From contig VGMK01000002.1 in the NCBI GenBank assembly GCA_016866375.1, forward strand, positions 1 to 33,533: DNA of 33,533 nucleotides, written 5' to 3'. Source of the stretch: Bacteroidota bacterium (GTDB lineage: Bacteria > Bacteroidota > Bacteroidia > Flavobacteriales_D > Crocinitomicaceae). Numbering within the stretch: the stretch's first letter is position 1; the number at the start of each line of letters is the position of its first letter. The translations under genes were made by a program, and so were the position numbers. Positions 11,705 through 27,168 of the stretch are shown here, piece after piece. Below the pieces are notes generated by a model that did no database searches, was not told where the DNA came from, and worked only from the letters and a program-made list of their open reading frames with translations.

Positions 11705-12307
11705 ATGAACGTTAACCAACTAAAAAATGAGATGGTTATGGTGATTAATAATCTACACAATAAAGGTTGTTCACCTGCCACATCGACCAATTATTCTTTT
11801 AAAGATAACGATAATCAAATTTGGGTAACAAGGTCTGGAATTGATAAATCCATTATTAGGGTGGACGATTTTATCACTATTTCAAGTGAAGGAAAATCTA
11901 TAGGAGAATATAAGGACCTCAGGCCATCAGCTGAATCTATCATTCATTGTGTGCTTTACGAAATGTTTCCTGAAACCAAATTTATCCTGCATAGCCATGG
12001 AATCTTTCCTGTTCTAATTTCATCGAGAGTATACCCTGAATTTAGAATTCAGGGGTATGAGCTACAAAAAGGATTTCCACATCACCAAACCCATCAGACA
12101 GAATCCATCATTCCAGTCTTTTGTAATAACCAAGATATGGAGTATTTTAAAAAAGAGTTGATGGAACGAAAAAGACAACTAAACAATAATTGTTTTATTA
12201 TCGAAAAACACGGGATTTATGCATGGGGGAATACTCTTTTAGACGCAAAAAAACATCTGGAAACTTTGGAGTATCTTTGTCAATGCGAATTTTTAAATAG
12301 CAAATAA
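11705..12307 (+). CDS. mtnB: Methylthioribulose-1-phosphate dehydratase (class II aldolase fold)
   Basis: NKGCSPATSTNYSF, RPSAESIIHCVLYEMFPETKFILHSHGIFPVL, IIEKHGIYAWG; adjacent to mtnD and mtnC. Confidence 0.9.
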   Translation: MNVNQLKNEMVMVINNLHNKGCSPATSTNYSFKDNDNQIWVTRSGIDKSIIRVDDFITISSEGKSIGEYKDLRPSAESIIHCVLYEMFPETKFILHSHGIFPVLISSRVYPEFRIQGYELQKGFPHHQTHQTESIIPVFCNNQDMEYFKKELMERKRQLNNNCFIIEKHGIYAWGNTLLDAKKHLETLEYLCQCEFLNSK

Positions 12308-12843
12308 TGGCAGTTTTATCGATTCCTGAAAGTGGTGTGCAAATTAAAAATGTATCTGAAATTCGAAGTTTTTTTAATGCTCGTGGCATTTTCTTCGACC
12401 AATGGTTGTGCGATGTGGAATTTTCGGATTCAGCGTCGTCAGAAGATATTCTTAAAGCCTATGAGAAAGACTTAATTCCTTTCATGAAAAAAGGCGCATA
12501 TCAGACAGCAGATGTAATTTCCATTCATTCATCCACGGAAAATTATGATGCCATTAGAGCAAAATTTTTAGCTGAACATATTCATACCGAAGATGAAATA
12601 CGTTTTTTTGTGGATGGTAAAGGCTTGTTTTGGTTTAATATGGAGGGGGATCTCATTTTCAATTTGCTTTGTGAAAAAGGTGATTTGATTTCGGTACCAG
12701 CAGGGATCAGACATTGGTTTGATGCCGGCGAAAAAGAACCGTTTGTCAAGGCAATAAGAATATTTATTGACACGAGTGGTTGGATACCGCACTACACGGA
12801 TTCTCAAATAGAAAAGTCTTATTCTCACTTCAAAATGCCATAG
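12307..12843 (+). CDS. mtnD: Acireductone dioxygenase (cupin)
   Basis: AEHIHTEDEIRFFVDGKGLFWF and PAGIRHWFD metal-binding motifs; TAATG overlap with mtnB. Confidence 0.92.
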   Translation: MAVLSIPESGVQIKNVSEIRSFFNARGIFFDQWLCDVEFSDSASSEDILKAYEKDLIPFMKKGAYQTADVISIHSSTENYDAIRAKFLAEHIHTEDEIRFFVDGKGLFWFNMEGDLIFNLLCEKGDLISVPAGIRHWFDAGEKEPFVKAIRIFIDTSGWIPHYTDSQIEKSYSHFKMP

Positions 12844-13551
12844 ATGGATTTGAGTTGCCGAGTTATACTTTCTGATATTGAAGGGACAACATCATCTGTT
12901 TCCTATGTTTACGATGTTCTTTTTCCTTATTTTAGAGAACACATTCTTGAAATCACGCAGTTTGCTCACTTAGCAGAGGTAAAGGAAGCTTTTTCGGAGG
13001 TAATAGGTATTTGCGAACGTGAGGAAGGTGTTATCTTGACTACAAGTGAGGGAGTCATGCAGAAATTGCTTGAATGGAGTATTAAAGACAAAAAGTTCAC
13101 ACCGTTGAAGACGTTGCAGGGAATCATTTGGAATAAAGGTTATCAACTTGGTGAATTAAAAGGACATGTTTATGACGACGTATCGGTTAATTTAGAGAAA
13201 TGGTCAACGAATGGATTGAAAATAGGAATATATTCCTCCGGATCAATTACCTCTCAAAAGTTACTTTTCAAATATTCATTAGCAGGTGATTTAACCAAGT
13301 GGTTGTCTTGTTATTTTGATACAACTATTGGACACAAAAGAAATGAGGATTCCTACCTTAAAATAGCTGCAGGAATAGGCCAAGATCCAAGCGAAATAGT
13401 TTTTCTATCAGATATTCAAGAGGAACTGAGTGCAGCTCGTCAAGCGGGATTCAAAACAATCCATATTCTGCGTGAAGAGGGCTCATCAAGCACCTCAACC
13501 TACAGGGCAAAAGACTTTAATGAGGTGAATAACCTGCTCCATCAACTTTAA
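12844..13551 (+). CDS. mtnC: Enolase-phosphatase E1 (HAD superfamily)
   Basis: SDIEGTTSSVSYVYDVLFPYFR, GIYSSGSITSQKLLF, DTTIGHKRNEDSYLKIA, FLSDIQEELSAARQAGF. Confidence 0.93.
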   Translation: MDLSCRVILSDIEGTTSSVSYVYDVLFPYFREHILEITQFAHLAEVKEAFSEVIGICEREEGVILTTSEGVMQKLLEWSIKDKKFTPLKTLQGIIWNKGYQLGELKGHVYDDVSVNLEKWSTNGLKIGIYSSGSITSQKLLFKYSLAGDLTKWLSCYFDTTIGHKRNEDSYLKIAAGIGQDPSEIVFLSDIQEELSAARQAGFKTIHILREEGSSSTSTYRAKDFNEVNNLLHQL

Positions 13552-13579: not shown

Positions 13580-13954
13580 TCATTCTTTCGGAATAATGAA
13601 AACCTTCAGATGGAGTATTTCTTTTTTCTTTCGGGTATTAGTTTTCAAGGTTATTATCCTATCTTGGAAAAAATACTTTCCACTTGTATTGAAGGTTACA
13701 TCAATTTTAGCAGTTTTTCCCGGATCAATGGGGCCTGTAGGCAATATAACATTCGTGCATGTGCATTCGGTCTCAGATGAATAAATCATGAGTGGTACTT
13801 TCCCTCTATTGGTCACGAAATACGTTTGGTGAATTGTTTCTCCCTCTTGTGTTCTAGGAAATTTTACAGTTTTATGCTGGACATAAAAAACCGCCGACTG
13901 TGCGACTACAGCGGCGGTTAAGAAAAATATGAAGATCGCTAATCGATACCTCAA
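13580..13954 (-). CDS. DUF1573 domain protein (secreted)
   Basis: Signal peptide then VFYVQHKTVKFPRTQEGETIHQTYFVTNRGKVPLMIYSSETECTCTNVILPTGPIDPGKTAKIDVTFNTSGK, the DUF1573 pattern. Confidence 0.88.
   Translation of the reverse strand: MRYRLAIFIFFLTAAVVAQSAVFYVQHKTVKFPRTQEGETIHQTYFVTNRGKVPLMIYSSETECTCTNVILPTGPIDPGKTAKIDVTFNTSGKYFFQDRIITLKTNTRKKKEILHLKVFIIPKE
13884..13919 (-). terminator. Intrinsic-terminator-like hairpin with U-tract inside CDS
   Basis: On minus strand AACCGCCG-CTGT-AGTCGC-ACAG-T-CGGCGGTT then T-run: 12 bp of stem with a single bulged base, GC-rich, followed by TTTTTT (counting the last stem T's). Confidence 0.55.
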
Positions 13955-13959
13955 TGAAA

Positions 13960-14409
13960 TTAATTATTAGTGGGTGCTCCTGAATTATTTACAGGTGTAC
14001 CATTCTCTGGAGCGGGACCAACTTCTCCCTTAATTCGGAGAATGGAGATTCCTCCTTCGACGTTCACTGCATTAGAGGTAATAGTTACCGTTTTGTTAAT
14101 TGGGCCGGGTCTTTTAGTGTCATATTTAACACGAATTGTACCTTTGGCTCCTGGTGCTATCGGTTCTTGCGAATATTCAGGCACCGTACAACCGCATGAC
14201 CCTTTAGCATTGGAAATAATCAAAGGCAGATCGCCGGTGTTTTTAAAATCAAAGGAACAGTAGGGCTCACCGTCATACTTAATGTTGCCATAATCGTGAG
14301 TTTCCTTAGAGAACTCAATTTTAGCGCCTGATTGAACGGGTGTGCCTTGGGCTGTGACAGTCACAAATGCTGCCATTAAAAATGCAAAGGAGAATATTAA
14401 ATTTTTCAT
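13960..14409 (-). CDS. DUF1573 domain protein (secreted)
   Basis: Signal peptide MKNLIFSFAFLMAAFVTVTAQ; HDYGNIKYDGEPYCSFDFKNTGDLPLIISNAKGSCGCTVPEYSQEPIAPGAKGTIRVKYDT. Confidence 0.92.
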   Translation of the reverse strand: MKNLIFSFAFLMAAFVTVTAQGTPVQSGAKIEFSKETHDYGNIKYDGEPYCSFDFKNTGDLPLIISNAKGSCGCTVPEYSQEPIAPGAKGTIRVKYDTKRPGPINKTVTITSNAVNVEGGISILRIKGEVGPAPENGTPVNNSGAPTNN

Positions 14410-14507: not shown

Positions 14508-15512
14508 TTAATCTCTTTTTAACCAGCCCTTTTTAAGAAAATAGATGATAAGAATTACAGACAATAATGACATCGAGCCAATAACTACGAAATACCCGTA
14601 ATGGTAATCTAATTCTGGAATGTATTTGAAATTCATGCCATATACACCAACAATGAACGTGAGCGGGATGAAAATAGACGATACAACCGTTAAAGTTTTC
14701 ATTACTTGATTCATTCTTTGTCCCTGAATTGCATAATATAAATTGGCAATTCCTTCAATAATTTGCTTATTTGCCTCAATTTCCTCGAGAATTGCTGAAC
14801 ATGACTTGTATAAATTTTGAAAATAGCGATTATTCTCTTTTTCAATAAATCTGCTATCTGTAGATAATAGTTCGTTACAAATTTCACGCATCGGTAAAAC
14901 GACCTTTCGAAGAGAAATTAGTTTACGTTTTGTAGTTTCTAACTCCCTGAATAATTGCTTACTCTGATATTCATTTATTTGATCGTCGATATATTCAATA
15001 TTTTTGATACAATCTGACAATACTTCAAAATAATTGTCAATGATGGCCTCAAGCAGACGAAATAATAAAAAATCTGTTCCTTTGGATCTAATTTTTCCAC
15101 GTCCTTTCACAATTCGGTCGCGAACATCTGCAAAATGGTCTGAGGATTTATCTTGATATGAAATTAAGTAATTTTTGTGTAAGATAAAACTCATGTTTTC
15201 GTCAATCAACGTATTTTCGCCAAGACCGCTTGGTAAAAGTGATTTTAAGGCAAAATATAAAAAGTTAGGATACTCCTCCACCTTTGGTCGCCTTGAAGGA
15301 AAATAAAGTGCTTCAATAATTAACTTATCAATTCCTAGATTTTGTGCCAAATGCTCTATGGATTGCCTATCCTCTAACCCGTGATAGTTTAGCCAACAAA
15401 TGTGGTCATCATCCACATCATTTTTTGAAAACGAATGTAAGAAATACTCGCTTGATTCCTCGTTTATGGAATAAAAGGCACTACTATATTTGTATAACTG
15501 ACAATTACTCAT
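14508..15512 (-). CDS. corA: CorA-family magnesium/cobalt transporter
   Basis: C-terminal TMs with YGMNF motif (FIVGVYGMNFKYIPEL). Track start is 15551, but the start at 15512 (MSNCQLYKYSSAFY) is preferred because it overlaps the stop of the upstream micro-ORF. Confidence 0.9.
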   Translation of the reverse strand: MSNCQLYKYSSAFYSINEESSEYFLHSFSKNDVDDDHICWLNYHGLEDRQSIEHLAQNLGIDKLIIEALYFPSRRPKVEEYPNFLYFALKSLLPSGLGENTLIDENMSFILHKNYLISYQDKSSDHFADVRDRIVKGRGKIRSKGTDFLLFRLLEAIIDNYFEVLSDCIKNIEYIDDQINEYQSKQLFRELETTKRKLISLRKVVLPMREICNELLSTDSRFIEKENNRYFQNLYKSCSAILEEIEANKQIIEGIANLYYAIQGQRMNQVMKTLTVVSSIFIPLTFIVGVYGMNFKYIPELDYHYGYFVVIGSMSLLSVILIIYFLKKGWLKRD

Positions 15513-15651
15513 AACTAATCGGAGACTTTCCTTTACTGAATGCGCAGCCATCGCAATGAGGTTGTTTTTTTAAAAATTTCCCATAGAATAGTTTGGCCAG
15601 GTATCCGACGGCTAAGGTTATTATTAAGATTACCACAATGACTTGAGTCAT
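15505..15651 (-). CDS. 48-aa single-TM protein with CxxC (MTQVIVVILIITLAVGYLAKLFYGKFLKKQPHCDGCAFSKGKSPISYE)
   Basis: Not in ORF track (below size cutoff). ATGA overlap with aminotransferase stop and ATGAGTAA overlap with corA start; hydrophobic N-terminus, basic stretch, CDGC. Confidence 0.72.
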   Translation of the reverse strand: MTQVIVVILIITLAVGYLAKLFYGKFLKKQPHCDGCAFSKGKSPISYE

Positions 15652-16511
15652 AAACCTAATTTTTTTTCCCAGAATTCGTTCAACAACACTACCAATTTTC
15701 TCGACATGTTATTGTAAAATCTTTTTGTTCTGTAGCCGCCAACCCAATTGATACCTCTAATTGCATTGGTAACAAAAATTTCATCAGCAGCGAGTATGTT
15801 TTGAGGAAGGATTGCACATTCGTATACTTTGATGCCATGCATTATTGCCAAATTTACAATCTGCATCCTCATTGTTCCTGCCAAACATCCTTCATCTAGA
15901 CTCGGAGTATACAATACACCATTACTTACTATGAAAATATTACATGACGATGTTTCTAGAATATTTCCTTTATCGTTTGATAAAAAAACGTCGTCTAGCC
16001 CTTTTTCTTGAGCGGAAATAGCAGCCATAACATAAGTCAAACCTGTTTTCGTTTTGTAGTTTGACAGAAAATTCTTTTGTAATTTGATGTCTTGGTAAAT
16101 ATCAACTTCTAGACCTTTAGCATTTAATTCAAAGTGATTGACATCATAGGGGTATACCTCTATGTAGTAAGTGCACTCATTTGAATCAGGAAGATAAGCA
16201 CCTCCTGTCACTCTATCAAGAGAAAGCCTACATCTTCCGCCTTCTTTGATATTTGATTTCTGCAATAGTTCATTCAATTTTTCCTCGAAAAAAATAGAGT
16301 TAAAATAGCTGGGAGTTCGCATTTTAATTGCTTTCGCTCCCTCTATTAATCGTTTAATATGATTCTCTATATTCACAGGTCGACCCGCAATTACACGAAT
16401 ACTCTCAAAAACACCGTCACCATATAAATGCCCCCTATTACCTGGATGTATAGTGGGGGCATCGGCAGGTAATAGAGTTCCGTTATTGTTGACGTATAGT
16501 ACTGACATCAT
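15648..16511 (-). CDS. Aminotransferase class IV (aminodeoxychorismate lyase / branched-chain aminotransferase-like)
   Basis: GDGVFESIRVIAGRP, GGRCRLSLDRVTGG, YKTKTGLTYVMAAISAQEKGLDDVFLSNDKGNILETSSCNIFIV, CLAGTMR, DEIFVTNAIRGINWV. Confidence 0.9.
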   Translation of the reverse strand: MMSVLYVNNNGTLLPADAPTIHPGNRGHLYGDGVFESIRVIAGRPVNIENHIKRLIEGAKAIKMRTPSYFNSIFFEEKLNELLQKSNIKEGGRCRLSLDRVTGGAYLPDSNECTYYIEVYPYDVNHFELNAKGLEVDIYQDIKLQKNFLSNYKTKTGLTYVMAAISAQEKGLDDVFLSNDKGNILETSSCNIFIVSNGVLYTPSLDEGCLAGTMRMQIVNLAIMHGIKVYECAILPQNILAADEIFVTNAIRGINWVGGYRTKRFYNNMSRKLVVLLNEFWEKKLGL

Positions 16512-17140
16512 AAAATCAATTCAATAAATGTGATCAATTTAGTAGGTTCCAACAAAGTTACGTAAAGAATACCAAAAAGTGCTCCACCGATATGTGCTTC
16601 ATGTGCAATTCCGCTTGTTCCTCTTTTCATTGCTAAATACTCAATTAATAAATAAAGCGGTCCAAAAATAAATGCGGGAATTGGTACAGGTATAAAAAAT
16701 AAACCCAGCTCCATGGTAGGATACCATAAAATGGCAGCAAAGATCACGGCTGAGACGGCGCCGGATGCACCCAAACTTTGGTACATTATATTATCTTGCT
16801 GCTTAACGTAAATATATCCCGTTGCAAAGATTCCCCCTAATAAATACAAAACTAAAATATGAACAGCACCACCCTCAGGTCCAAATTCATGACGCCACTG
16901 ATCTTCTAAAAAGGATCCAAGAAAATAGACTGATAGCATATTAAAGGCAAAGTGTTGGAAATCAGCATGAATGAAAATATGAGATATTATTCTAGTGATT
17001 TCGTTGTTTCGTTTAATGCGGTAAGGAAAAAATGTTAACTTGGCCTTTCGAATATCTGAATTAAAACAAAATATGGAGAAACACCCCGTAATAAAAATTA
17101 AAATCAAAATCACATTAAAACCTTGTGGCATTGAAAACAT
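16508..17140 (-). CDS. Rhomboid family intramembrane serine protease
   Basis: HIFIHADFQHFAFNMLSVYFLG, SLGASGAVSAVIF (catalytic GxSG), IAHEAHIGGALFGI (catalytic His). Confidence 0.93.
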   Translation of the reverse strand: MFSMPQGFNVILILIFITGCFSIFCFNSDIRKAKLTFFPYRIKRNNEITRIISHIFIHADFQHFAFNMLSVYFLGSFLEDQWRHEFGPEGGAVHILVLYLLGGIFATGYIYVKQQDNIMYQSLGASGAVSAVIFAAILWYPTMELGLFFIPVPIPAFIFGPLYLLIEYLAMKRGTSGIAHEAHIGGALFGILYVTLLEPTKLITFIELIL

Positions 17141-17168
17141 TTAGTACTAATTTAATAATTTAAACGAG

Positions 17169-18761
17169 TTGCTGAGACATTTAATTTTTCTGGTTGCTTT
17201 TTTAATTTTGCTCAGCTGCGAGAGCAGTCAGGAGGAGAAAAATGAGTCTGTGGATAGATTATTTTTAACTGATGTTTCAATACCTGATGATGTGAAATTA
17301 TCTAGAGCTCTTGAGAAAAGTTTTTTAAAATCATTAGGATTGAATGACCAACAGCAGTCTGCCGTTATAAATTTTTACAAGGCAAATTCATTTGGGTTCA
17401 AACATTATTCAAATAATTCCATGAGTAAGTTCGGAACTATGACAGAAAAGTGTTTAACAGAACCATTACAATTTGGCGTGCCAAAATCCAGATTGTGTCA
17501 GCCTAAGAAAGATGCACATTGGATTGAGAAAGAAATTATTATGACATCGAACTTATTAACGCTGGGAGGAACTTTAAAACATGGGTTAATTGATTTTGAA
17601 CAAAAGAAAATGAGGAATATTGTTCCTTTAGACGGGAAAGAATTTCTAGAACAGTGCAAACAATTGGATTCGCTCTCAATTGAGGAACTTATAATTAAAC
17701 AAGGTATAGTTGACACTAATTATCAATTTCTTGCTCAACATTTATATGATTTTTGCCAAAAATATCCCCTTGATACCAATTCCTTTCAATTAAAATCAAA
17801 AAAGGAAGATCCATTACTGTTCGAAATAAATATCAAAAAATCTTTAATATCTAAAGGATTTTTAAAATCAAAATCATCTGAAGCAGAATTCAATCAATCA
17901 ATTAAAAACTTTAAACGAATGTGTGGCTTTAATGAGGATAGTAATATTGACGAGGCTACCTTGCAAGCATTGAATGAGAGCACATACAACAAAGTAGTTC
18001 GCGCTTCAATTGCATTGGATAAACTTAGGCAAAGAAAGCCCGATGAAAAAAAGTTTATTCGTGTAAATTTACCATCTTTTGAGTTATTCTTCATTGCAGA
18101 TGGGGCCTTAAAAAGTAAAAATAAGGTCATCATTGGTAAAGTATCCAATCAAACACCTGAACTTCACGCACGGGTTAATAGAATTGTTTGTTATCCATTT
18201 TGGAAAGTCCCGCAGTCTATTGCAAATAAAGAAATATTGCCAGCTGTTCGAGCCAATTCACGGTATTTATCCAAAAATCAATATCGAATATATAGAGGTA
18301 CAACTGAAATTAATCCAGATAGCGTTTCTTGGCGAAAATACAGCAAGAATTTTCCTTACACTGTCATTCAAGATCCAGGACCACATAATAGTCTAGGAAT
18401 TATTAAACTCGAGTTCTATAATTCACACAACGTTTACGTTCATGACACGCCATCTAAATCTTTATTTAGAAAAGGGTTTAGAAGTTTCTCCCACGGTTGT
18501 ATGCGCTGTGAAAATCCTGTTGAATTGGCAAAAACCATATTAGATTTTGATTCCATTCGTTCGACGAACAGGAATATTTATGTCAGAGATTCTATCGATA
18601 GTATTTTGGTGAGGAAAATTAATTTCAGTATACCATTGAAATGGTCAATTCCTATTTATGTTGAGTATATTACGGTAAGTGCCACAAGGGATAATTTATT
18701 TTTTCACCTGGACTTATACAGGAGAGAAGATGAATATATTGATTTATTGCGGGTTGCATAA
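17169..18761 (+). CDS. L,D-transpeptidase (YcbB/LdtD-like) lipoprotein
   Basis: TTG start; lipobox-like LILLSC; YkuD motif HDTPSKSLFRKGFRSFSHGCMRCENP; N-terminal domain as in YcbB-type enzymes. Confidence 0.88.
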   Translation: MLRHLIFLVAFLILLSCESSQEEKNESVDRLFLTDVSIPDDVKLSRALEKSFLKSLGLNDQQQSAVINFYKANSFGFKHYSNNSMSKFGTMTEKCLTEPLQFGVPKSRLCQPKKDAHWIEKEIIMTSNLLTLGGTLKHGLIDFEQKKMRNIVPLDGKEFLEQCKQLDSLSIEELIIKQGIVDTNYQFLAQHLYDFCQKYPLDTNSFQLKSKKEDPLLFEINIKKSLISKGFLKSKSSEAEFNQSIKNFKRMCGFNEDSNIDEATLQALNESTYNKVVRASIALDKLRQRKPDEKKFIRVNLPSFELFFIADGALKSKNKVIIGKVSNQTPELHARVNRIVCYPFWKVPQSIANKEILPAVRANSRYLSKNQYRIYRGTTEINPDSVSWRKYSKNFPYTVIQDPGPHNSLGIIKLEFYNSHNVYVHDTPSKSLFRKGFRSFSHGCMRCENPVELAKTILDFDSIRSTNRNIYVRDSIDSILVRKINFSIPLKWSIPIYVEYITVSATRDNLFFHLDLYRREDEYIDLLRVA

Positions 18762-18771
18762 AAAGATTGCG

Positions 18772-18779
18772 TAATTTTA
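18772..18779 (+). promoter_or_regulatory. -7-like box TAATTTTA for rpe (one mismatch to TAnnTTTG)
   Basis: 4-nt spacer (CAAT) to ATG at 18784; TTG 22 bp upstream at 18747-18749 could serve as a -33 element. Confidence 0.5.
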
Positions 18780-18783
18780 CAAT

Positions 18784-19434
18784 ATGACTATTGTTTCACC
18801 ATCAGTGCTCTCTTGTGATTTTGGAAATATACAACGAGATGTTGAAATGTTAAATACCTCGAGTGCTGAATGGATACATATAGATGTAATGGATGGGGTT
18901 TTTGTTCCAAATATTTCCTTCGGTTTCCCAGTACTTTCTGCCATCCGACGACACACCTCGAAAGTGCTAGATGTGCACCTTATGATCTCCAATCCGGATG
19001 CTTACTTGACGGATTTTTGTAATTCAGGAGCGAATATAGTTACCGTTCATTATGAGGCCTGTACCCACCTTCATCGGACACTCTCTGAAATTAAACGTCT
19101 GGGAATGAAAGCAGGTGTGGCTTTAAATCCTCATTCTCCCATTAGCGTTTTGCAAGACATTATTACAGAAGTAGATTTGGTATTGATTATGTCTGTTAAT
19201 CCAGGCTTTGGAGGACAAAACTTTATATCCTCAACGGTGGAAAAAGTAGTACAACTTAAGGAATTAATTAATCTTAAAAATTCTAAAGCCTTAATCGAGG
19301 TAGATGGTGGTGTAAACTTAGAGACAGGAAAACTTCTTGTGCAAGCAGGAGCGGATGCCCTAGTTGCAGGTAGTTTTGTGTTTAGTTCTTCCTCACCAAC
19401 AGATACCATTCAGTCTTTGTGTGAATTGAAGTAA
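18784..19434 (+). CDS. rpe: Ribulose-phosphate 3-epimerase
   Basis: SPSVLSCDFGNIQRDVEMLN, WIHIDVMDGVFVPNISFGFPVL, DVHLMISNPD, LIMSVNPGFGGQNFI, EVDGGVN. Confidence 0.97.
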   Translation: MTIVSPSVLSCDFGNIQRDVEMLNTSSAEWIHIDVMDGVFVPNISFGFPVLSAIRRHTSKVLDVHLMISNPDAYLTDFCNSGANIVTVHYEACTHLHRTLSEIKRLGMKAGVALNPHSPISVLQDIITEVDLVLIMSVNPGFGGQNFISSTVEKVVQLKELINLKNSKALIEVDGGVNLETGKLLVQAGADALVAGSFVFSSSSPTDTIQSLCELK

Positions 19435-19458
19435 CTTTTTATTTCAGCGTGCGTTTGT

Positions 19459-20508
19459 ATGATCATGAAACTAATTTTCTTCACTTTTTTAGTTTTACTT
19501 TCCTCTAATTTCTTTTCACAAGATTTGGAGGATAAAGAGAATGAACTCAATAAATCCTTACTTCTTCTCAGGGGAGCAAAAACTGACGAGGAAATGAATG
19601 AAATAAATGCAATATTTAAAGTGAAAATGTTAGACTTTCTTAAAAATGAGGGAGCACTCAAACACAAATTTAATTCGTGCAAAACGATCTCTGTATTAGA
19701 TAGCCCTGATGGTCTTGTACGATTGATTACCTGGAATATTGAATATACTGATTTTACCTATGCCTTTGATGGGGTAGTTATGTATTTTGATGACAGTAAA
19801 GAAAAAGTTAAATTATTCGAGCTAATTGACGTTCTCGATCCTTATTCCGAGCGACCAATCGGCACAATTGATGCGAAAAATTGGTATGGTGCCTTGTATT
19901 ATCAAATGATTCCTTTTGAGAGAAATGGTAAAATGGAATATGTTCTTCTTGGTTGGGATGGAGGAACTCCAGGAAATAATTTTAAAGTAATGGATGTGAT
20001 GACAATATCCTCAAATGGCGTCAAGTTCGGAAGTCCTGTTTTCAAAGAAAAAAACACTGTTCACAAAAGAATGATTTACGAGTTTTCGGAACAAGCGAAA
20101 ATGACCTTGACCTTTGATAAGAAGTATAACCGAATAGTAATGGATCACCTTTCGCCTGAAGCACAAAGCTTGGCAGGGGTGAGATCTTTCTATGTCCCTG
20201 ACATGTCCTATGATGCTTACAACCTTGAGGATGAAATGTGGTATTTTAAGGAGGATATTATTTCGAATAACCAAGTTGGTGATAAAAAAGAAATTCAACA
20301 ATGGATAAATCCTGATGAAAATAGGCCTGGAGAAATTGTAAATCATGTCGCTAGGACACCTGAATCTGAGCTGGAATTATCTAAAACTGAAACGAAGATT
20401 ATTCCAAAAAAAGCAAGGCGTAATAAAAGACGGACGGACAATAGTTTGAAAGTAACTACTGGTAAGTATAAAATAAAAAAAAGGCCCAGGAAATTCAACA
20501 TTGAATAA
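19459..20508 (+). CDS. Secreted hypothetical protein with basic C-terminal tail
   Basis: Signal peptide (MKLIFFTFLVLLSSNFFSQ; likely start at 19465), C-terminal KKARRNKRRTDNSLKVTTGKYKIKKRPRKFNIE; TAATG overlap with the next gene. Confidence 0.85.
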   Translation: MIMKLIFFTFLVLLSSNFFSQDLEDKENELNKSLLLLRGAKTDEEMNEINAIFKVKMLDFLKNEGALKHKFNSCKTISVLDSPDGLVRLITWNIEYTDFTYAFDGVVMYFDDSKEKVKLFELIDVLDPYSERPIGTIDAKNWYGALYYQMIPFERNGKMEYVLLGWDGGTPGNNFKVMDVMTISSNGVKFGSPVFKEKNTVHKRMIYEFSEQAKMTLTFDKKYNRIVMDHLSPEAQSLAGVRSFYVPDMSYDAYNLEDEMWYFKEDIISNNQVGDKKEIQQWINPDENRPGEIVNHVARTPESELELSKTETKIIPKKARRNKRRTDNSLKVTTGKYKIKKRPRKFNIE

Positions 20509-21335
20509 TGCAGCTAGGTCAAATCAATAAACTTGCTGTTAGTAGAATAACTCCACCTGGGGCATACTTGAAAGATTTTAGAGGTGACGAAGTTTTATTA
20601 CCGAGAAAGTACCTCATTCCAGAAAATGACTTTCAAGTTGGAGCCTTAGTTGACGTCTTCGTTTTCAAAGACTCACAAAATAGAATAGTTTCCACCACTG
20701 AAAGTCCACATTTACTCCTGGGAAATATAGCTTTTTTAAAGGTAGTTCTAGTTAACATGTTTGGTGCATTTGTTGATTGGGGCTTGGACAAAAATTTATT
20801 TGTTCCGTTCAAAGAACAAGCAGAAAAAATGGAGGAGGGGCGATCCTATTTGATTACTTTGCGCTACGATAATCAAACGGATCGCTTATTTGGAAGTAGT
20901 AAAATTACAAAAACACTCGAACCCTGCAGGGAATCCTTGGAGGAGTGTCAAGTGAGCGGTTTGGTTTGGTCCACAACTGAATTAGGAGTTAAAATAATAG
21001 TGAACCAACGTTATGAAGGTTTGATTTTCAAGAACGATGTCAATAGAAAATTAGAATGTGGTGACGAGATAATCTGTTATGTTCGCAAGGTCAGAACGGA
21101 CGGAAAATTAGATTTGCAATTTGATGCATTGGGCTTGGAAAAATACGACAATGCGTATTCAGTACTCTTAGAGCGTTTAACGAAAAAAAAGGAAATTTTT
21201 CTCCACGATAAGTCAAGTCCTGAGGAAATTAATAAAGCGCTAGGAATGAGCAAAAAACTATTCAAACAAACTGTGGGGAAGTTGCTTAAAAATCAACTTA
21301 TAACTTTAACTGATAAATCCATTCGACTAAAATAA
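20508..21335 (+). CDS. S1-like RNA-binding protein, CvfB/YitL family
   Basis: MQLGQINKLAVSRITPPGAYLKDFRGDEVLLPRKY, FGAFVDWGLDKNLFVPFKEQ, KKLFKQTVGKLLKNQLI: tandem S1-like domains plus winged-helix end typical of CvfB. Confidence 0.88.
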   Translation: MQLGQINKLAVSRITPPGAYLKDFRGDEVLLPRKYLIPENDFQVGALVDVFVFKDSQNRIVSTTESPHLLLGNIAFLKVVLVNMFGAFVDWGLDKNLFVPFKEQAEKMEEGRSYLITLRYDNQTDRLFGSSKITKTLEPCRESLEECQVSGLVWSTTELGVKIIVNQRYEGLIFKNDVNRKLECGDEIICYVRKVRTDGKLDLQFDALGLEKYDNAYSVLLERLTKKKEIFLHDKSSPEEINKALGMSKKLFKQTVGKLLKNQLITLTDKSIRLK

Positions 21336-22505
21336 TTTCGGTTCAGGAAAATTCTTATAATCGAAACGAGCCCTCTTGTAAGGAAAAATATCTTGCAACT
21401 CTCCTGAATAATAAAATTCAAATGCTACCGCACCAAAAGTATATACCGTATTTCCAACCTCAAAACTAGAACCCCCTACTTCTGGTTCAGCTTTTGGTTT
21501 TGATTTGTTGAACCCTAGATTGAATAAAGACGCTAAAATTTCAGGTCTATCCTGGATAGGAAATCCGGACCTTTCCCATTGCATTTTAATTTGTTTTACG
21601 AACAGAGCGGTATACAAATAGGAGTAATAGTGATTTTTCATTTGGACTAATCTTTTAACGGTGGGACTCATGCCTTCGTTTACAGCAGCATCAAAGTTTT
21701 GTGTTGAGTCGTAGTCTAACAGATGTTCGTATTCCACCCCTAAATAAAATTTTGAATTTTTATCTTTCAAATTTTGTTCTATTCGCTGTGCTGTTGATTC
21801 TTTGACCCCGGTTACCCCGTAGGAAAAGTTATTTTCAACCACTAAAATTTTTAATGGGCCGATGTATTTTTTATACGATTCTCTTTTCGAATTAAATAAT
21901 CGTATTTGTTCTCCCACCAAACAAGCCACAATTAACCTTGGTTCAACCCCGGATACTTTTGCAGCCGAATCAATGTAGTATTTATCTTTTTTAACTGCCT
22001 CTTTAAAAGCCATCCACTCTGCTATATTCATCCACTCAAAAACGCTTAAATTGGTATTTTGACGAGGCAGAAGATTCTTCTTCATCATTGTTAAATCAGC
22101 CTGATATTGCTCATTAACCTGCATGCGAAGATCAACAGCATCCAACATTTTTAAGGCTAATTTTTCGTCCTTACTTTCTGTCCAAGCTTTCAATATATAG
22201 TTTGCATTTAACGGATAATATCGGTTCAACAAAACTATTCTATTCAGTGCTTCATAGCGATGCTTGTCCACGCTCACGCTATCAGTTTTAAATCCTTGAT
22301 TGTATTTTTTGTCCATTTCCTGGAAATAACGGTTGTTCGGGTCCGCCATACCAAAATCATTGGACGATAATATTCCGCTCTGAAACAAGACCCAGGTGCA
22401 GAGTAATCCTGCCCCGAGTATTGCAAATCCATATAATAAAATGTGGTAGGGGATTCGAAACCATTTACTGCAAAAAAAATTACGAATTCGGGATTTGAAA
22501 GACAT
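21327..22505 (-). CDS. Membrane-anchored protein with possible lysozyme/transglycosylase-like domain
   Basis: N-terminal TM; AKVSGVEPRLIVACLVGEQIRLF and NFSYGVTGVKESTAQRIEQNL resemble lysozyme-superfamily motifs. ATG at 22505 preferred over track GTG at 22511. Confidence 0.7.
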   Translation of the reverse strand: MSFKSRIRNFFCSKWFRIPYHILLYGFAILGAGLLCTWVLFQSGILSSNDFGMADPNNRYFQEMDKKYNQGFKTDSVSVDKHRYEALNRIVLLNRYYPLNANYILKAWTESKDEKLALKMLDAVDLRMQVNEQYQADLTMMKKNLLPRQNTNLSVFEWMNIAEWMAFKEAVKKDKYYIDSAAKVSGVEPRLIVACLVGEQIRLFNSKRESYKKYIGPLKILVVENNFSYGVTGVKESTAQRIEQNLKDKNSKFYLGVEYEHLLDYDSTQNFDAAVNEGMSPTVKRLVQMKNHYYSYLYTALFVKQIKMQWERSGFPIQDRPEILASLFNLGFNKSKPKAEPEVGGSSFEVGNTVYTFGAVAFEFYYSGELQDIFPYKRARFDYKNFPEPKLF

Positions 22506-22570
22506 TAACACGTAATACGGTAATGCTATTTTTAGGTTTCAACCACTTATTCGCTTAATTATAGAAATTG

Positions 22571-22578
22571 TATCTTTG
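22571..22578 (+). promoter_or_regulatory. Bacteroidota-type -7 box TATCTTTG for gpsA
   Basis: Exact TAnnTTTG with a 4-nt spacer (TTTC) to ATG at 22583. Confidence 0.72.
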
Positions 22579-22582
22579 TTTC

Positions 22583-23587
22583 ATGCATAAGCAATCGTAT
22601 GAAAAAGTAGCCATAATAGGAGGAGGGAGTTGGGCAACTGCTCTCTCAAAAATTATCTCATCGAACGGTCAATCTTTAACGTGGTGGATGAGAGATACGA
22701 AAGCTGTTGAACACATTCGTAAATTTCGTCACCATCCAAATTATCTACAATCTGTAGAGTTTGACTTATCAAAAATTACACTTTCCACCGATTTGACAAC
22801 TGCCGTAAGTGAATCTGATCTTATCATCCTCGTAGTGCCAGCCGCGTATATGGATGCGACATTAAAAGGATTATCAACTGCACATTTCAAAGGAAAAATT
22901 GTTTTTTCAGCGGTTAAAGGAATTGTTCCTGAATTTAATGCAATACCCGCAAGGTATCTACATAAGTCATTTAACATACCTTACGAAAATATTGGAATTA
23001 TTTGTGGGCCTTGCCATGCGGAAGAGGTGGCTATGGAAAGGTTGAGTTATCTAACCATAGCGTGTCTTGATGAACTTAAATCCAATGCTGTAGCGTTCTT
23101 ACTTTCAAATCGTTATATCAGGACAACACAATCTGACGACCTATTTGGTACGGAGTTATCTGCAATTTTAAAGAATATATATGCTTTAGCAGCGGGAATA
23201 TGCTCTGGACTTGGTTATGGAGATAATTTTCTTTCTGTACTTATTTCAAATGCTATTCAAGAAATAGAGCGATTTATAGACGTGGTTAGTCCTGTTCACA
23301 GAGACACTAAAACAAGTGCTTATTTGGGAGATTTGTTGGTAACAGCTTATTCAAATTTCTCAAGAAATAGAACCTTCGGATTCATGATCGGAAAAGGATA
23401 TTCTGTGGCGAATGCACAATTAGAAATGAAAATGGTCGCCGAAGGATATTATGCTACCAAGTCATTGGTTGAAATCAATCAGAAGTTTAAAGTTGAAATG
23501 CCTATATTGGAAATGGTTAATTCCGTAATTTATCAAGGGATTAGACCGCAAGAGGCCGTAAATAATTTGTCTGAAAAATTAACATAA
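22583..23587 (+). CDS. gpsA: NAD(P)H-dependent glycerol-3-phosphate dehydrogenase
   Basis: VAIIGGGSWATALSKI, LSAILKNIYALAAGICSGLGYGDN. Start moved from track TTG (22568) to ATG (22583), since the upstream codons are the promoter box. Confidence 0.95.
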   Translation: MHKQSYEKVAIIGGGSWATALSKIISSNGQSLTWWMRDTKAVEHIRKFRHHPNYLQSVEFDLSKITLSTDLTTAVSESDLIILVVPAAYMDATLKGLSTAHFKGKIVFSAVKGIVPEFNAIPARYLHKSFNIPYENIGIICGPCHAEEVAMERLSYLTIACLDELKSNAVAFLLSNRYIRTTQSDDLFGTELSAILKNIYALAAGICSGLGYGDNFLSVLISNAIQEIERFIDVVSPVHRDTKTSAYLGDLLVTAYSNFSRNRTFGFMIGKGYSVANAQLEMKMVAEGYYATKSLVEINQKFKVEMPILEMVNSVIYQGIRPQEAVNNLSEKLT

Positions 23588-24865
23588 ATGGTTAAAGTAT
23601 TCAAATTTGGAGGAGCCTCTGTTAAAGACTCGGCCGCTATACAAAATGTTGCGGAAATTCTAACAAAATATCCCGAAGATAGCATACTTGTTGTAATCTC
23701 AGCCATGGGCAAAACAACAAATAAGCTCGAAGAAGTGGTTTCTGCTTATCAATTGTCCGATGAAGCTTTATTCCTTCGTCTGATCAATGATCTTGAGGCC
23801 TTTCATTCCCAAATTTTACTTGCATTATTTTCTGATCGACAGCGTAAAATTTATCAAATTATTGAGACTATTTTCAATCAGTTAAGAATGAGATTTAGTA
23901 AACCGTTCTCAGAAAATTATTCTTTTGAATACGATCAAATTGTTTCGCTTGGCGAAGTTTTGTCGTCTCGAATTATAGATGCATATTTGACAGAGAAAGG
24001 GTTTTCTTCAGTTTGGACTGATGCACGTTCACTCTTGAGAACAGATAATAATTATCAGGAGGGAAATGTAGATTGGAAGAAGACTGAAGAGTTGATTCAA
24101 CAGAATTTAAGACCGCTTTTTACGCACAAAAAGATTATAGTTTCACAAGGTTTTGTCGGTCACACTTCTGAGGGAATGACTACCACATTAGGAAGAGAAG
24201 GGTCAGATTATACTGCGGGTATTTTTGCACACTGCATGCATGCTGAGAGCGTTACCATATGGAAGGATGTTCCTGGGATGCTTAATGCTGATCCAAAATT
24301 ATTCGAGGATACTGTTTTACTTAAACAAATTTCATTTAAGGAGGCAATCGAACTCTCTTACTATGGGGCAAGTGTTATACATCCTAAAACGGTGAAACCG
24401 CTCCAAAATAAAAACATTCCACTGTATGTCAAGTCTTTTATTAAACCTGACGAAAAAGGCACTGTCATACAAGCGAACAGTGATTTTGATAGTTTAGTTC
24501 CTTCTTACATCCTAAAATTCGACCAAGTTCTATACACTATTACACCAAAAGATTTTTCTTTTCTCGTGGAAGAAAATTTAAGCGGTATTTTTAAGCGTTT
24601 GGCCGATGCTCATGCGAAGATCAACATGATGCAAAATTCAGCATTGAGTTTTTCGATCCTTCTTGACAGAAAGAAAGTAAATCCAGATCAAGTGTTGCAA
24701 ATGTTTAGTGACAGCTATCACGTAAAATATAACGAGGGATTGGAGTTGATCACCATCCGTCATTATGATGAATCAACGATTCAAAAAGTTACCAAAAATA
24801 AAGAAATTTTAGTGCAACAAAGAACGCGACAAACGGCACGTTTAGTGGTGAAAAAAATAGAATAA
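23588..24865 (+). CDS. lysC: Aspartate kinase
   Basis: MVKVFKFGGASVKDSAAIQNVAEIL, GFVGHTSEGMTTTLGREGSDYTAGIFA, WKDVPGMLNADPK, SYYGASVIHPKTVKPL, ACT-like C-terminus. Confidence 0.94.
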   Translation: MVKVFKFGGASVKDSAAIQNVAEILTKYPEDSILVVISAMGKTTNKLEEVVSAYQLSDEALFLRLINDLEAFHSQILLALFSDRQRKIYQIIETIFNQLRMRFSKPFSENYSFEYDQIVSLGEVLSSRIIDAYLTEKGFSSVWTDARSLLRTDNNYQEGNVDWKKTEELIQQNLRPLFTHKKIIVSQGFVGHTSEGMTTTLGREGSDYTAGIFAHCMHAESVTIWKDVPGMLNADPKLFEDTVLLKQISFKEAIELSYYGASVIHPKTVKPLQNKNIPLYVKSFIKPDEKGTVIQANSDFDSLVPSYILKFDQVLYTITPKDFSFLVEENLSGIFKRLADAHAKINMMQNSALSFSILLDRKKVNPDQVLQMFSDSYHVKYNEGLELITIRHYDESTIQKVTKNKEILVQQRTRQTARLVVKKIE

Positions 24866-24903
24866 TACCTGCTTTAAGTTAGTGTGATTTCTATGATTCC
24901 TAT

Positions 24904-24911
24904 TAATTTTA
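24904..24911 (+). promoter_or_regulatory. -7-like box TAATTTTA for feoA (one mismatch to TAnnTTTG)
   Basis: 4-nt spacer (CCCT) to GTG start at 24916; same octamer and spacing as rpe. Confidence 0.48.
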
Positions 24912-24915
24912 CCCT

Positions 24916-25140
24916 GTGTCTACATTATTAGATCTTGAGATAGAAAGTAGGGCAGTTATTCTGGAGGTGTTACCATCATCCTTCAGTCCAAAAATGGCAG
25001 AAATGGGCCTTATTGCGGGAGCAGAATTATCCGTTGCGTTCAAAGCTCCTTTTGGAGATCCCATTGCTATTGAGTTGAATGGAAGCTTGTTATCGTTGCG
25101 TAAAAATGAGGCGAGTCTTATAATAATACAATTGATATGA
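24916..25140 (+). CDS. feoA: Ferrous iron transport protein A (FeoA, SH3-like)
   Basis: 74 aa; KMAEMGLIAGAELSVAFKAPFGDPIAIELNGSLLSLRKNEASLIII; ATGA overlap with feoB. Confidence 0.92.
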   Translation: MSTLLDLEIESRAVILEVLPSSFSPKMAEMGLIAGAELSVAFKAPFGDPIAIELNGSLLSLRKNEASLIIIQLI

Positions 25141-27095
25141 CACTGAAAATAGGACTTTTTGGAAATCCAAATACAGGAAAAAGTTCTTTGTTCAATATGC
25201 TGACAGGGTTAAATCAACACGTGGGAAATTTTCCTGGTGTAACCGTTGAAAAAAAATACGGGGTAATCAAGCGTTCAGAGAAAACCTTCACTATCATCGA
25301 TTTCCCCGGGATTTATTCACTATATCCAACAAGTCAGGACGAACAGGTGGTGTACGATGTCTTAAAAGTACCGAATCACCTTGATTTTCCAGACATGGCA
25401 TGCGTTGTTCTGGATAGTTCTAATCTTTCTCGAAATTTATTGCTGTTAACTCAACTTTATGACTTAAAAATTCCAATTGTAGCTATTTTAAACATGTGGG
25501 ATTTAGTAGAGAAAAGAGGATTGACAATTGACCTCTCCAATTTAGAAAAAACTTTTCCGGGCGTGACATTCGTCCAGACTAATGCGCGAGTGGGTTTAGG
25601 TAAGGAAAGAATTTTAGAGGCTTTGGAAAAGACTGTAGAAACATCAAATTATTCTCCTGTAATTGATTCGTTTGAGTTAGCCAAAATTGAAGATAAAAAA
25701 AGTCAAGAAAATGATATTAAATCGCGATATGGCTGGATAAACGAGAAACTTCCTCATATTTTAAAAACCAAGCCTGGTGTTGAAGAGAGAACTAAGAAAA
25801 TAGACAAAATCTTAACACATCCTGTAATCGGCTATTTGATTTTTCTTTCGATTCTTTTCACTGTTTTTCAGTTTATTTTCAGTTTTGCTGTCATACCCAT
25901 GGATTTTATTGATTTAAAATTTAGTCAATTGGCAGAATGGGTTGGAACGACCATGCAATCAGGATTGTTAAATGACTTAGTTTCGCAAGGAATTATTCCT
26001 GGAATAGGAGGGGTTGTGGTTTTTATACCTCAAATCGCTCTTTTATTTTTCTTTTTGTCCATTTTAGAGGAAACGGGTTATTTAGCGCGAGTGGTATTTT
26101 TAATGGACAGATTGATGAGGCCATTTGGATTAAATGGTAAAAGTGTGGTTCCCCTGATGTCTAGTGTGGCGTGTGCCATTCCTGGGGTTATGGCTACTCG
26201 AACAATTGCAGATTGGAAGGAGCGTTTGATTACAATTTTGGTTGCTCCTCTGATGAGTTGCAGTGCGCGACTTCCTGTATTTACACTCTTAATTTCGTTG
26301 ACCATACCGAACGAAGATATTGCGGGAATATTTAATTTACAAGGAATTGTGCTCATGGGCCTCTATTTACTTGGAATTGTATCGGCCTTACTCGTCGCTA
26401 TCGTACTGAATAAACTTATAAAAATTAAATCTTCAGGATATTTACTTTTAGAACTTCCAAGTTATAAATCTCCCCGTTGGAAAAATGTGATTATTAACGT
26501 TTGGGAAAAGGTAAAAATATTTTCACTAGATGCCGGAAAAGTTATTCTGTCAATTTCAATTATTCTCTGGGCGCTGGCGACATTTGGTCCCGGCGACACA
26601 ATGGAAAATGAAGCAAAAAAACGAGAAGAATTGTTAGCATCTTCTGCACTTTCCGAAGATGAAAAAGAGCAACAAATTGCAAGCGTAAAATTGGAACACT
26701 CCTATATTGGAATGATGGGAAAAGCTCTTGAACCCGTGATAGCCCCTTTGGGTTATGATTGGAAAATCGGAATTTCTTTAATCACCTCTTTTGCTGCACG
26801 CGAGGTTTTTGTCGGATCCTTGGCGACTATTTATGCTGTACATGACGAAAGCGAGGAAAACGACCGATTAATCGACCGATTAAAAAAAGAACAAAAACCT
26901 GATGGCACCCCAGTTTACACATTAGCCACAGGGATGAGTTTAATGGTATTTTATGTTTTTGCTATGCAATGTATGGCGACACTTGCGGTAGTTAAAAGAG
27001 AGACGAACTCATGGAAATGGCCGATTATTCAAATTGTATTTATGGGGATTTTAGCTTACACGGCCTCTTTTTTGACGTTTAATTGTCTGTCATAA
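25137..27095 (+). CDS. feoB: Ferrous iron transporter FeoB
   Basis: GNPNTGKSSLFNMLTGLNQHVGNFPGVTVEKKYG G-domain; Nucleoside_recognition/Gate TMs (LMSCSARLPVFTLLISL, AAREVFVGSLATIY). Confidence 0.97.
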   Translation: MTLKIGLFGNPNTGKSSLFNMLTGLNQHVGNFPGVTVEKKYGVIKRSEKTFTIIDFPGIYSLYPTSQDEQVVYDVLKVPNHLDFPDMACVVLDSSNLSRNLLLLTQLYDLKIPIVAILNMWDLVEKRGLTIDLSNLEKTFPGVTFVQTNARVGLGKERILEALEKTVETSNYSPVIDSFELAKIEDKKSQENDIKSRYGWINEKLPHILKTKPGVEERTKKIDKILTHPVIGYLIFLSILFTVFQFIFSFAVIPMDFIDLKFSQLAEWVGTTMQSGLLNDLVSQGIIPGIGGVVVFIPQIALLFFFLSILEETGYLARVVFLMDRLMRPFGLNGKSVVPLMSSVACAIPGVMATRTIADWKERLITILVAPLMSCSARLPVFTLLISLTIPNEDIAGIFNLQGIVLMGLYLLGIVSALLVAIVLNKLIKIKSSGYLLLELPSYKSPRWKNVIINVWEKVKIFSLDAGKVILSISIILWALATFGPGDTMENEAKKREELLASSALSEDEKEQQIASVKLEHSYIGMMGKALEPVIAPLGYDWKIGISLITSFAAREVFVGSLATIYAVHDESEENDRLIDRLKKEQKPDGTPVYTLATGMSLMVFYVFAMQCMATLAVVKRETNSWKWPIIQIVFMGILAYTASFLTFNCLS

Positions 27096-27131
27096 ATCTA
27101 AATTAAGTGTGTTTTATCCTGTTTAGATTTA
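27093..27131. repeat. Inverted repeat TAAATCTAAA-N19-TTTAGATTTA upstream of dnaE
   Basis: Perfect 10-bp arms (27093-27102, 27122-27131); left arm begins at the feoB stop codon. Confidence 0.8.
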
Positions 27132-27139
27132 AAAATTAT

Positions 27140-27147
27140 TACCTTTA
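27140..27147 (+). promoter_or_regulatory. -7-like box TACCTTTA upstream of dnaE
   Basis: One mismatch to TAnnTTTG; 21 nt before ATG at 27169. Confidence 0.4.
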
Positions 27148-27168
27148 TAATTCCGACAATATCCTCTC

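Follow-up and report, generated by a model that had tools for sequence, protein, structure and literature searches.

A reduced-cysteine FeoB-associated micro-gene parted from feoB by an inversion in a Crocinitomicaceae genome

With which partner does a 48-aa membrane micro-protein work when its gene starts on the stop codon of an aminotransferase gene and ends on the start codon of corA? The question is raised by the window, the stretch of 33,533 nucleotides analysed here. Our analysis suggests that the product is probably a FeoB-associated micro-protein that was parted from feoB, the gene for a bacterial iron importer, and acts in trans with FeoB. The identity of the micro-gene and the inversion that displaced it are put forward with high confidence, and the chances that the micro-protein itself handles Fe2+ are regarded as even.

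The micro-gene and its overlapping neighbours

The original prediction of a minus-strand ORF joined to both neighbours through ATGA and TAA/corA overlaps was borne out by the sequence. The 48-aa ORF runs from 15651 to 15505 (minus strand), and its translation, read from the window sequence, is MTQVIVVILIITLAVGYLAKLFYGKFLKKQPHCDGCAFSKGKSPISYE*. The locus contains the following features:

15505..15651, minus strand: micro-gene, putative FeoB-associated Cys-rich membrane protein, PF12669-like (exact ORF, profile match, congeneric homologues, purifying selection)
15648..15651, minus strand: ATGA overlap of aminotransferase stop and micro-gene start, the left inversion junction (sequence; both sister species; order in relatives)
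15505..15512, minus strand: 8-nt overlap of micro-gene stop and corA start (sequence; both sister species)
14508..15512, minus strand: corA, TIGR00383, above cut-off (profile match)
15648..16511, minus strand: class IV aminotransferase (AT4), PF01063, placed beside the micro-gene by the inversion (profile match)

The micro-gene TAA lies over the corA ATG as ATGAGTAA (15505-15512), an 8-nt overlap that both sister species retain (ATGAGTAA/ATGAGTAG), and the ATGA overlap with the aminotransferase TGA is identical in both as well. Judged from these overlaps, translational coupling of the micro-gene is plausible. The conserved corA start was assigned to 15512 (MSNCQLYKY); a longer mechanical start at 15551, which would overlap the CxxC codons, was rejected, as relatives begin at the MSxCQLYKY position in the alignment. 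The length of the micro-ORF is unremarkable, given that 50 ORFs of at least 40 aa overlap the surrounding 10-kb stretch. Length alone is thus insufficient, and the micro-ORF was accepted as a gene because it is conserved, as evidenced in its homologues, its CxxC and the large excess of synonymous over non-synonymous change.

Conservation across the genus and family assignment

Conservation of the frame and the CxxC, the check attached to the original prediction, was found across the genus (Crocinitomicaceae, Flavobacteriales). A profile built from 18 homologues and run over 86 genomes gave a micro-gene homologue in 74, including three weak but correctly placed matches (G076, G110 and G203), and 94 of 96 distinct homologues carry the CxxC. 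The relatives with named records are Crocinitomicaceae and Flavobacteriales metagenome-assembled genomes. Two homologues depart from the CxxC: L034, where the arrangement is CHSNCGC, and G110 (L140), in which the ORF behind feoB (L140 964-1053) has the membrane helix and ends before any Cys, giving a Cys-less version. Four genomes have feoB and lack the micro-gene; in G123, G145 and G149 the site runs into contig ends or masked bases, which leaves G135 as the only apparently real absence. Two additional matches, one inside g19459 of L128 (antisense) and one doubling the micro-gene in L221, where there is one CxxC ORF, were judged false. Q3 and both cysteines are invariant in the 67-row alignment, the latter forming the following motif:

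15544..15555, minus strand: CDGC (CxxC) motif, residues 33-36 (both Cys invariant, 67-sequence alignment)

PF12669 (FeoB_associated) was the sole Pfam family matching the window protein at E<0.01, with E=8e-4 and 20.1 bits, below the gathering score of 27 bits. Syntenic congeneric orthologues score 27.3-31.8 bits, above 27, and 50 of the 67 aligned homologues match the family at E<0.01 (best 1.6e-7), suggesting that the original prediction had picked the right relatives when it likened the ORF to FeoB-associated proteins. The window micro-protein has two cysteines only, and does not carry the described PF12669 motif Cx3-5Cx2-3Cx6-8C (PMC8749426); the CxxC alone is also found in most of the genus. 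Because only this CxxC is present, it was classed with the feoB-linked genes as an orthologue of reduced Cys content and not as a full-motif member. Searching NCBIfam with the micro-protein gave nothing relevant (BlaR1 and OadG-related fragments, E>0.02), the FeoC family was matched in neither Pfam nor NCBIfam, and a PDB profile search yielded no solved structure, with a single chance match to eS26 (E=0.077). The family itself is known, and the micro-gene is a reduced-Cys orthologue within it, not a new CorA system. Annotation size limits and Pfam cut-offs overlook such reduced two-Cys forms.

Linkage of the micro-gene to feoB

The micro-gene lies directly downstream of feoB in 70 of the 74 congeneric genomes carrying it. 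In 69 it follows the FeoB_C domain on the same strand at a distance of 558-670 bp; in the 70th, G124, the pair is split by a contig end. The upstream gene was identified as feoB by Gate and FeoB_C domains in two relatives and by a FeoB_C search across the genus. The micro-gene never occurs in a genome lacking feoB, and both are absent in eight, several of which are incomplete (Fisher p=9e-9, 86 genomes). FeoB-like upstream ends were also observed in other families of the order (L034, L037, L038, L045 and L048). The location beside corA had been taken in the original prediction to set the ORF apart from the FeoB-associated family, a view opposed by this gene order.

Among 80 corA loci, retrieved through their similarity to corA and a few of them with short flanks, feoB is present in 47 and the micro-gene in all 47 of those, whereas the 33 loci without feoB nearby have it in only L148 (G195) and L156 (G136), and 31 lack it. 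The micro-gene therefore tracks feoB, not corA (47/47 versus 2/33 loci), and a reading as a corA-specific gene was rejected on this linkage. The usual row in the genus is gpsA - lysC - feoA - feoB - micro - corA - DUF1573, facing mtnC/mtnD/mtnB - yqeY - ftsZ, and its end is retained in the window:

13580..14409, minus strand: two genes, which we take to be DUF1573-like, downstream of corA (matched there in relatives; old feoB-micro-corA-DUF1573 row)

Some observations were made alongside. Between ftsZ/yqeY and the DUF1573 pair, a three-gene methionine-salvage-like row (11705-13551), presumably mtnB, mtnD and mtnC, is conserved in the genus. The corA match of G115 (L046 1651-2457) is in two pieces within one 272-residue open frame, with about 38 middle residues missing, owing to either an internal deletion or an assembly error. 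Four records labelled Chitinophaga, Polynucleobacter or Chryseobacterium (L151, L153, L155 and L168) have the gene order of this Crocinitomicaceae genus, and their labels look wrong.

The inversion that parted the micro-gene and feoB

The window has an intact feoB, 10 kb from the micro-gene and on the opposite strand:

24916..25140, plus strand: feoA, 74 aa, GTG start (directly upstream of feoB, 4-nt overlap; same place in relatives)
25137..27095, plus strand: feoB, 652 aa, intact (PF07664, 64.2 bits; ORF)
15652..27168, no strand: inverted segment of about 11.4 kb, AT4 - rhomboid - L,D-transpeptidase - rpe - ... - gpsA - lysC - feoA - feoB (gene order in relatives)

The next gene after this feoB is dnaE, and no micro-gene was found among the small ORFs listed downstream. 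Uninverted relatives read micro | feoB feoA lysC gpsA ... rpe, L,D-transpeptidase, rhomboid, AT4 | dnaE, some of them lacking one gene; AT4 there adjoins dnaE, past the distal end of feoAB. This order was read in ten relatives, of which nine (L127-L134 and L139), read over 20 kb, span both junctions, and the tenth, L135 (G123), has the same order up to a contig end within feoB. The breakpoints fall between feoB and the micro-gene and between the aminotransferase gene and dnaE, the right junction now being in the feoB/dnaE gap (27096-27168). The inversion is common to the window and two sister species: G108 has the same segment inverted, and G195 has both junctions on separate contigs. As judged from these arrangements, a single inversion of about 11.4 kb accounts for every gene order, and it is because of this inversion that the window copy is not behind feoB as its orthologues are.

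Since the overlap of aminotransferase and micro-gene is the left inversion junction, a functional link of the micro-protein to the aminotransferase is unlikely. A second case of separation was observed in G136, where feoB is on a different contig from micro-gene and corA. The two inversion junctions revealed no long repeat; a 10-base direct match, TTTAAAAATT, is uninformative because the DNA is AT-rich. No description of FeoB-associated genes separated from feoB by inversion was found in the excerpts of open-access literature searched.

Selection after separation

In the three species pairs of the inversion clade, pS of the micro-gene is 0.72-0.83 versus pN of 0.30-0.36 (Fisher p 2e-7, 4e-5 and 4e-5, values that treat sites as independent), a comparison of three species in which two pairs have a saturated dS. 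The original prediction had named a Ka/Ks of about 1 in relatives with the same gene order as telling against it; this was not seen, pS exceeding pN two- to threefold in every pair. All three species have the start overlap, the stop overlap and the CxxC in common. Close pairs with feoB-linked copies gave a micro-gene dN/dS of 0.09-0.50, on few changes. Micro-gene identities in the clade are 46, 48 and 52%, versus means of 46, 37 and 46% for feoB-linked pairs of like corA divergence; as the clade values are not below those of the linked pairs, no loss of constraint is seen. Between the window and G108, the micro-protein shares 48% identity, corA 68% and the aminotransferase 84%. Taken as measures of constraint, the substitution patterns show that purifying selection has continued to maintain frame, overlaps and CxxC since the separation. 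Being kept intact after feoB moved, the micro-gene appears to make a working protein.

Predicted topology and proposed role

The AlphaFold2 model contains one helix, followed by an unstructured tail of low confidence:

15571..15648, minus strand: single predicted helix, residues 2-27, a transmembrane segment and then a basic stretch (AlphaFold2 model)

Block pLDDT values are 90 and 93 for residues 1-20 and 68 for residues 21-30. The hydrophobic N-terminus together with this helix is indicative of a single N-terminal transmembrane helix, and K20, K25, K28 and K29 cluster around its end, in good agreement with the plan read earlier of an N-terminal TM, a basic stretch and a CDGC. Because the lysines lie at or after the helix end, we infer from the positive-inside rule an N-out helix with the CxxC facing the cytoplasm.

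The ancestral micro-gene sat behind feoB, and a single inversion of about 11.4 kb removed feoAB, leaving the micro-gene after the aminotransferase gene and before corA. One N-out transmembrane helix would put the CxxC thiols on the cytoplasmic side, and the micro-protein may act in trans with FeoB, either taking Fe2+ that leaves the pore or sensing the iron or redox state, a part ascribed to FeoC-like subunits elsewhere. A metal-handling accessory had been suggested in the original prediction; its metal handling is retained here, as putative iron handling with FeoB on the basis of linkage, and CorA as the partner is disfavoured by the counts of corA loci.

Alternative explanations

An accessory of the adjacent CorA channel, serving Mg2+/Co2+ handling or gating, would fit a micro-gene that immediately precedes corA and overlaps it by 8 nt, as it also does in two sister species, and a micro-corA pair that is intact in all four genomes where feoB left. 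However, 31 of the 33 corA loci without feoB nearby have no micro-gene, and eight congeners (G121, G208, G207, G128, G193, G152, G122 and G114) have feoB and then the micro-gene with no corA match behind. In G053 (L118 4911-5033) only a C-terminal remnant of corA (residues 294-334) is left, flanked by an intact micro-gene and DUF1573, and in other genera of the family, sampled with 1.5 kb flanks, the micro-gene had no corA match next to it. We consider such an accessory very unlikely and the functional link to CorA weak; corA is an old but lineage-specific neighbour of the feoB-micro pair. Retention of the micro-gene away from feoB in four genomes could alternatively be caused by selection for corA coupling. 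A related reading, in which a trans-acting Feo subunit was freed from feoB co-transcription and its output rewired to the aminotransferase-corA transcript in the inversion clade, is thought unlikely; if true, ferrous iron uptake would be tuned together with CorA.

A general membrane thiol or redox protein, such as a disulphide or thiol-relay helper without specificity for FeoB, would share the generic layout of a lone CxxC behind a membrane helix, with two Cys only. The near-perfect feoB linkage and co-occurrence across the genus, as well as the FeoB-like upstream ends in other families of the order, make this quite unlikely. A decaying leftover of the separation, readable by chance and non-functional, could account for the faster divergence of the micro-gene relative to its two neighbours between the window and G108, and for the short Cys-less version in the congener G110. 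This is highly improbable, given the excess of pS over pN in every inversion-clade pair, the identical boundaries and CxxC of the three species and the lack of acceleration compared with feoB-linked pairs. A FeoB-associated micro-protein acting in trans with FeoB is thus the reading we prefer.

Comparison with known systems

The micro-protein shares with the PF12669 family its size, single N-terminal helix, basic linker, C-terminal cysteines and profile match, as well as, in relatives of the window, the position behind feoB. It differs in having a CxxC instead of the longer Cys motif, in scoring below the curated cut-off and, in the inversion clade, in being 10 kb from a feoB on the other strand.

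FeoC of Proteobacteria is a cytoplasmic protein with a winged-helix fold. Like the micro-protein, it is a small Cys-bearing partner of FeoB, and has been suggested as a functional analogue of the FeoB-associated proteins (PMC8749426), the relatedness of the two being described there as unclear. Unlike FeoC, the micro-protein is predicted to be a single membrane helix within 48 aa, with no winged helix. In some species a Cys-rich C-terminal domain fused to FeoB or FeoAB represents the same element (PMC8749426, PMC8980893), whereas the micro-gene of the window is separate and even unlinked; such fusions are rare, and the function of the family is termed unknown (PMC8980893). The transcript of a family member in Porphyromonas gingivalis is 1.8-fold up under iron depletion (PMC10434189), and in Bizionia, too, a response of family transcripts to iron or an iron regulator is on record (PMC9478572).

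A 2022 study of Feo evolution regarded the functional translation of FeoB-associated Cys-rich ORFs of Firmicutes and Bacteroidetes as a question still unanswered (PMC8749426). The inversion clade may be viewed as a natural experiment on it, with the ORF cut from feoB and its frame, overlaps and CxxC kept. The question becomes testable because the micro-gene is naturally separated from feoB, and the unlinked arrangement lets the micro-gene be studied apart from feoB.
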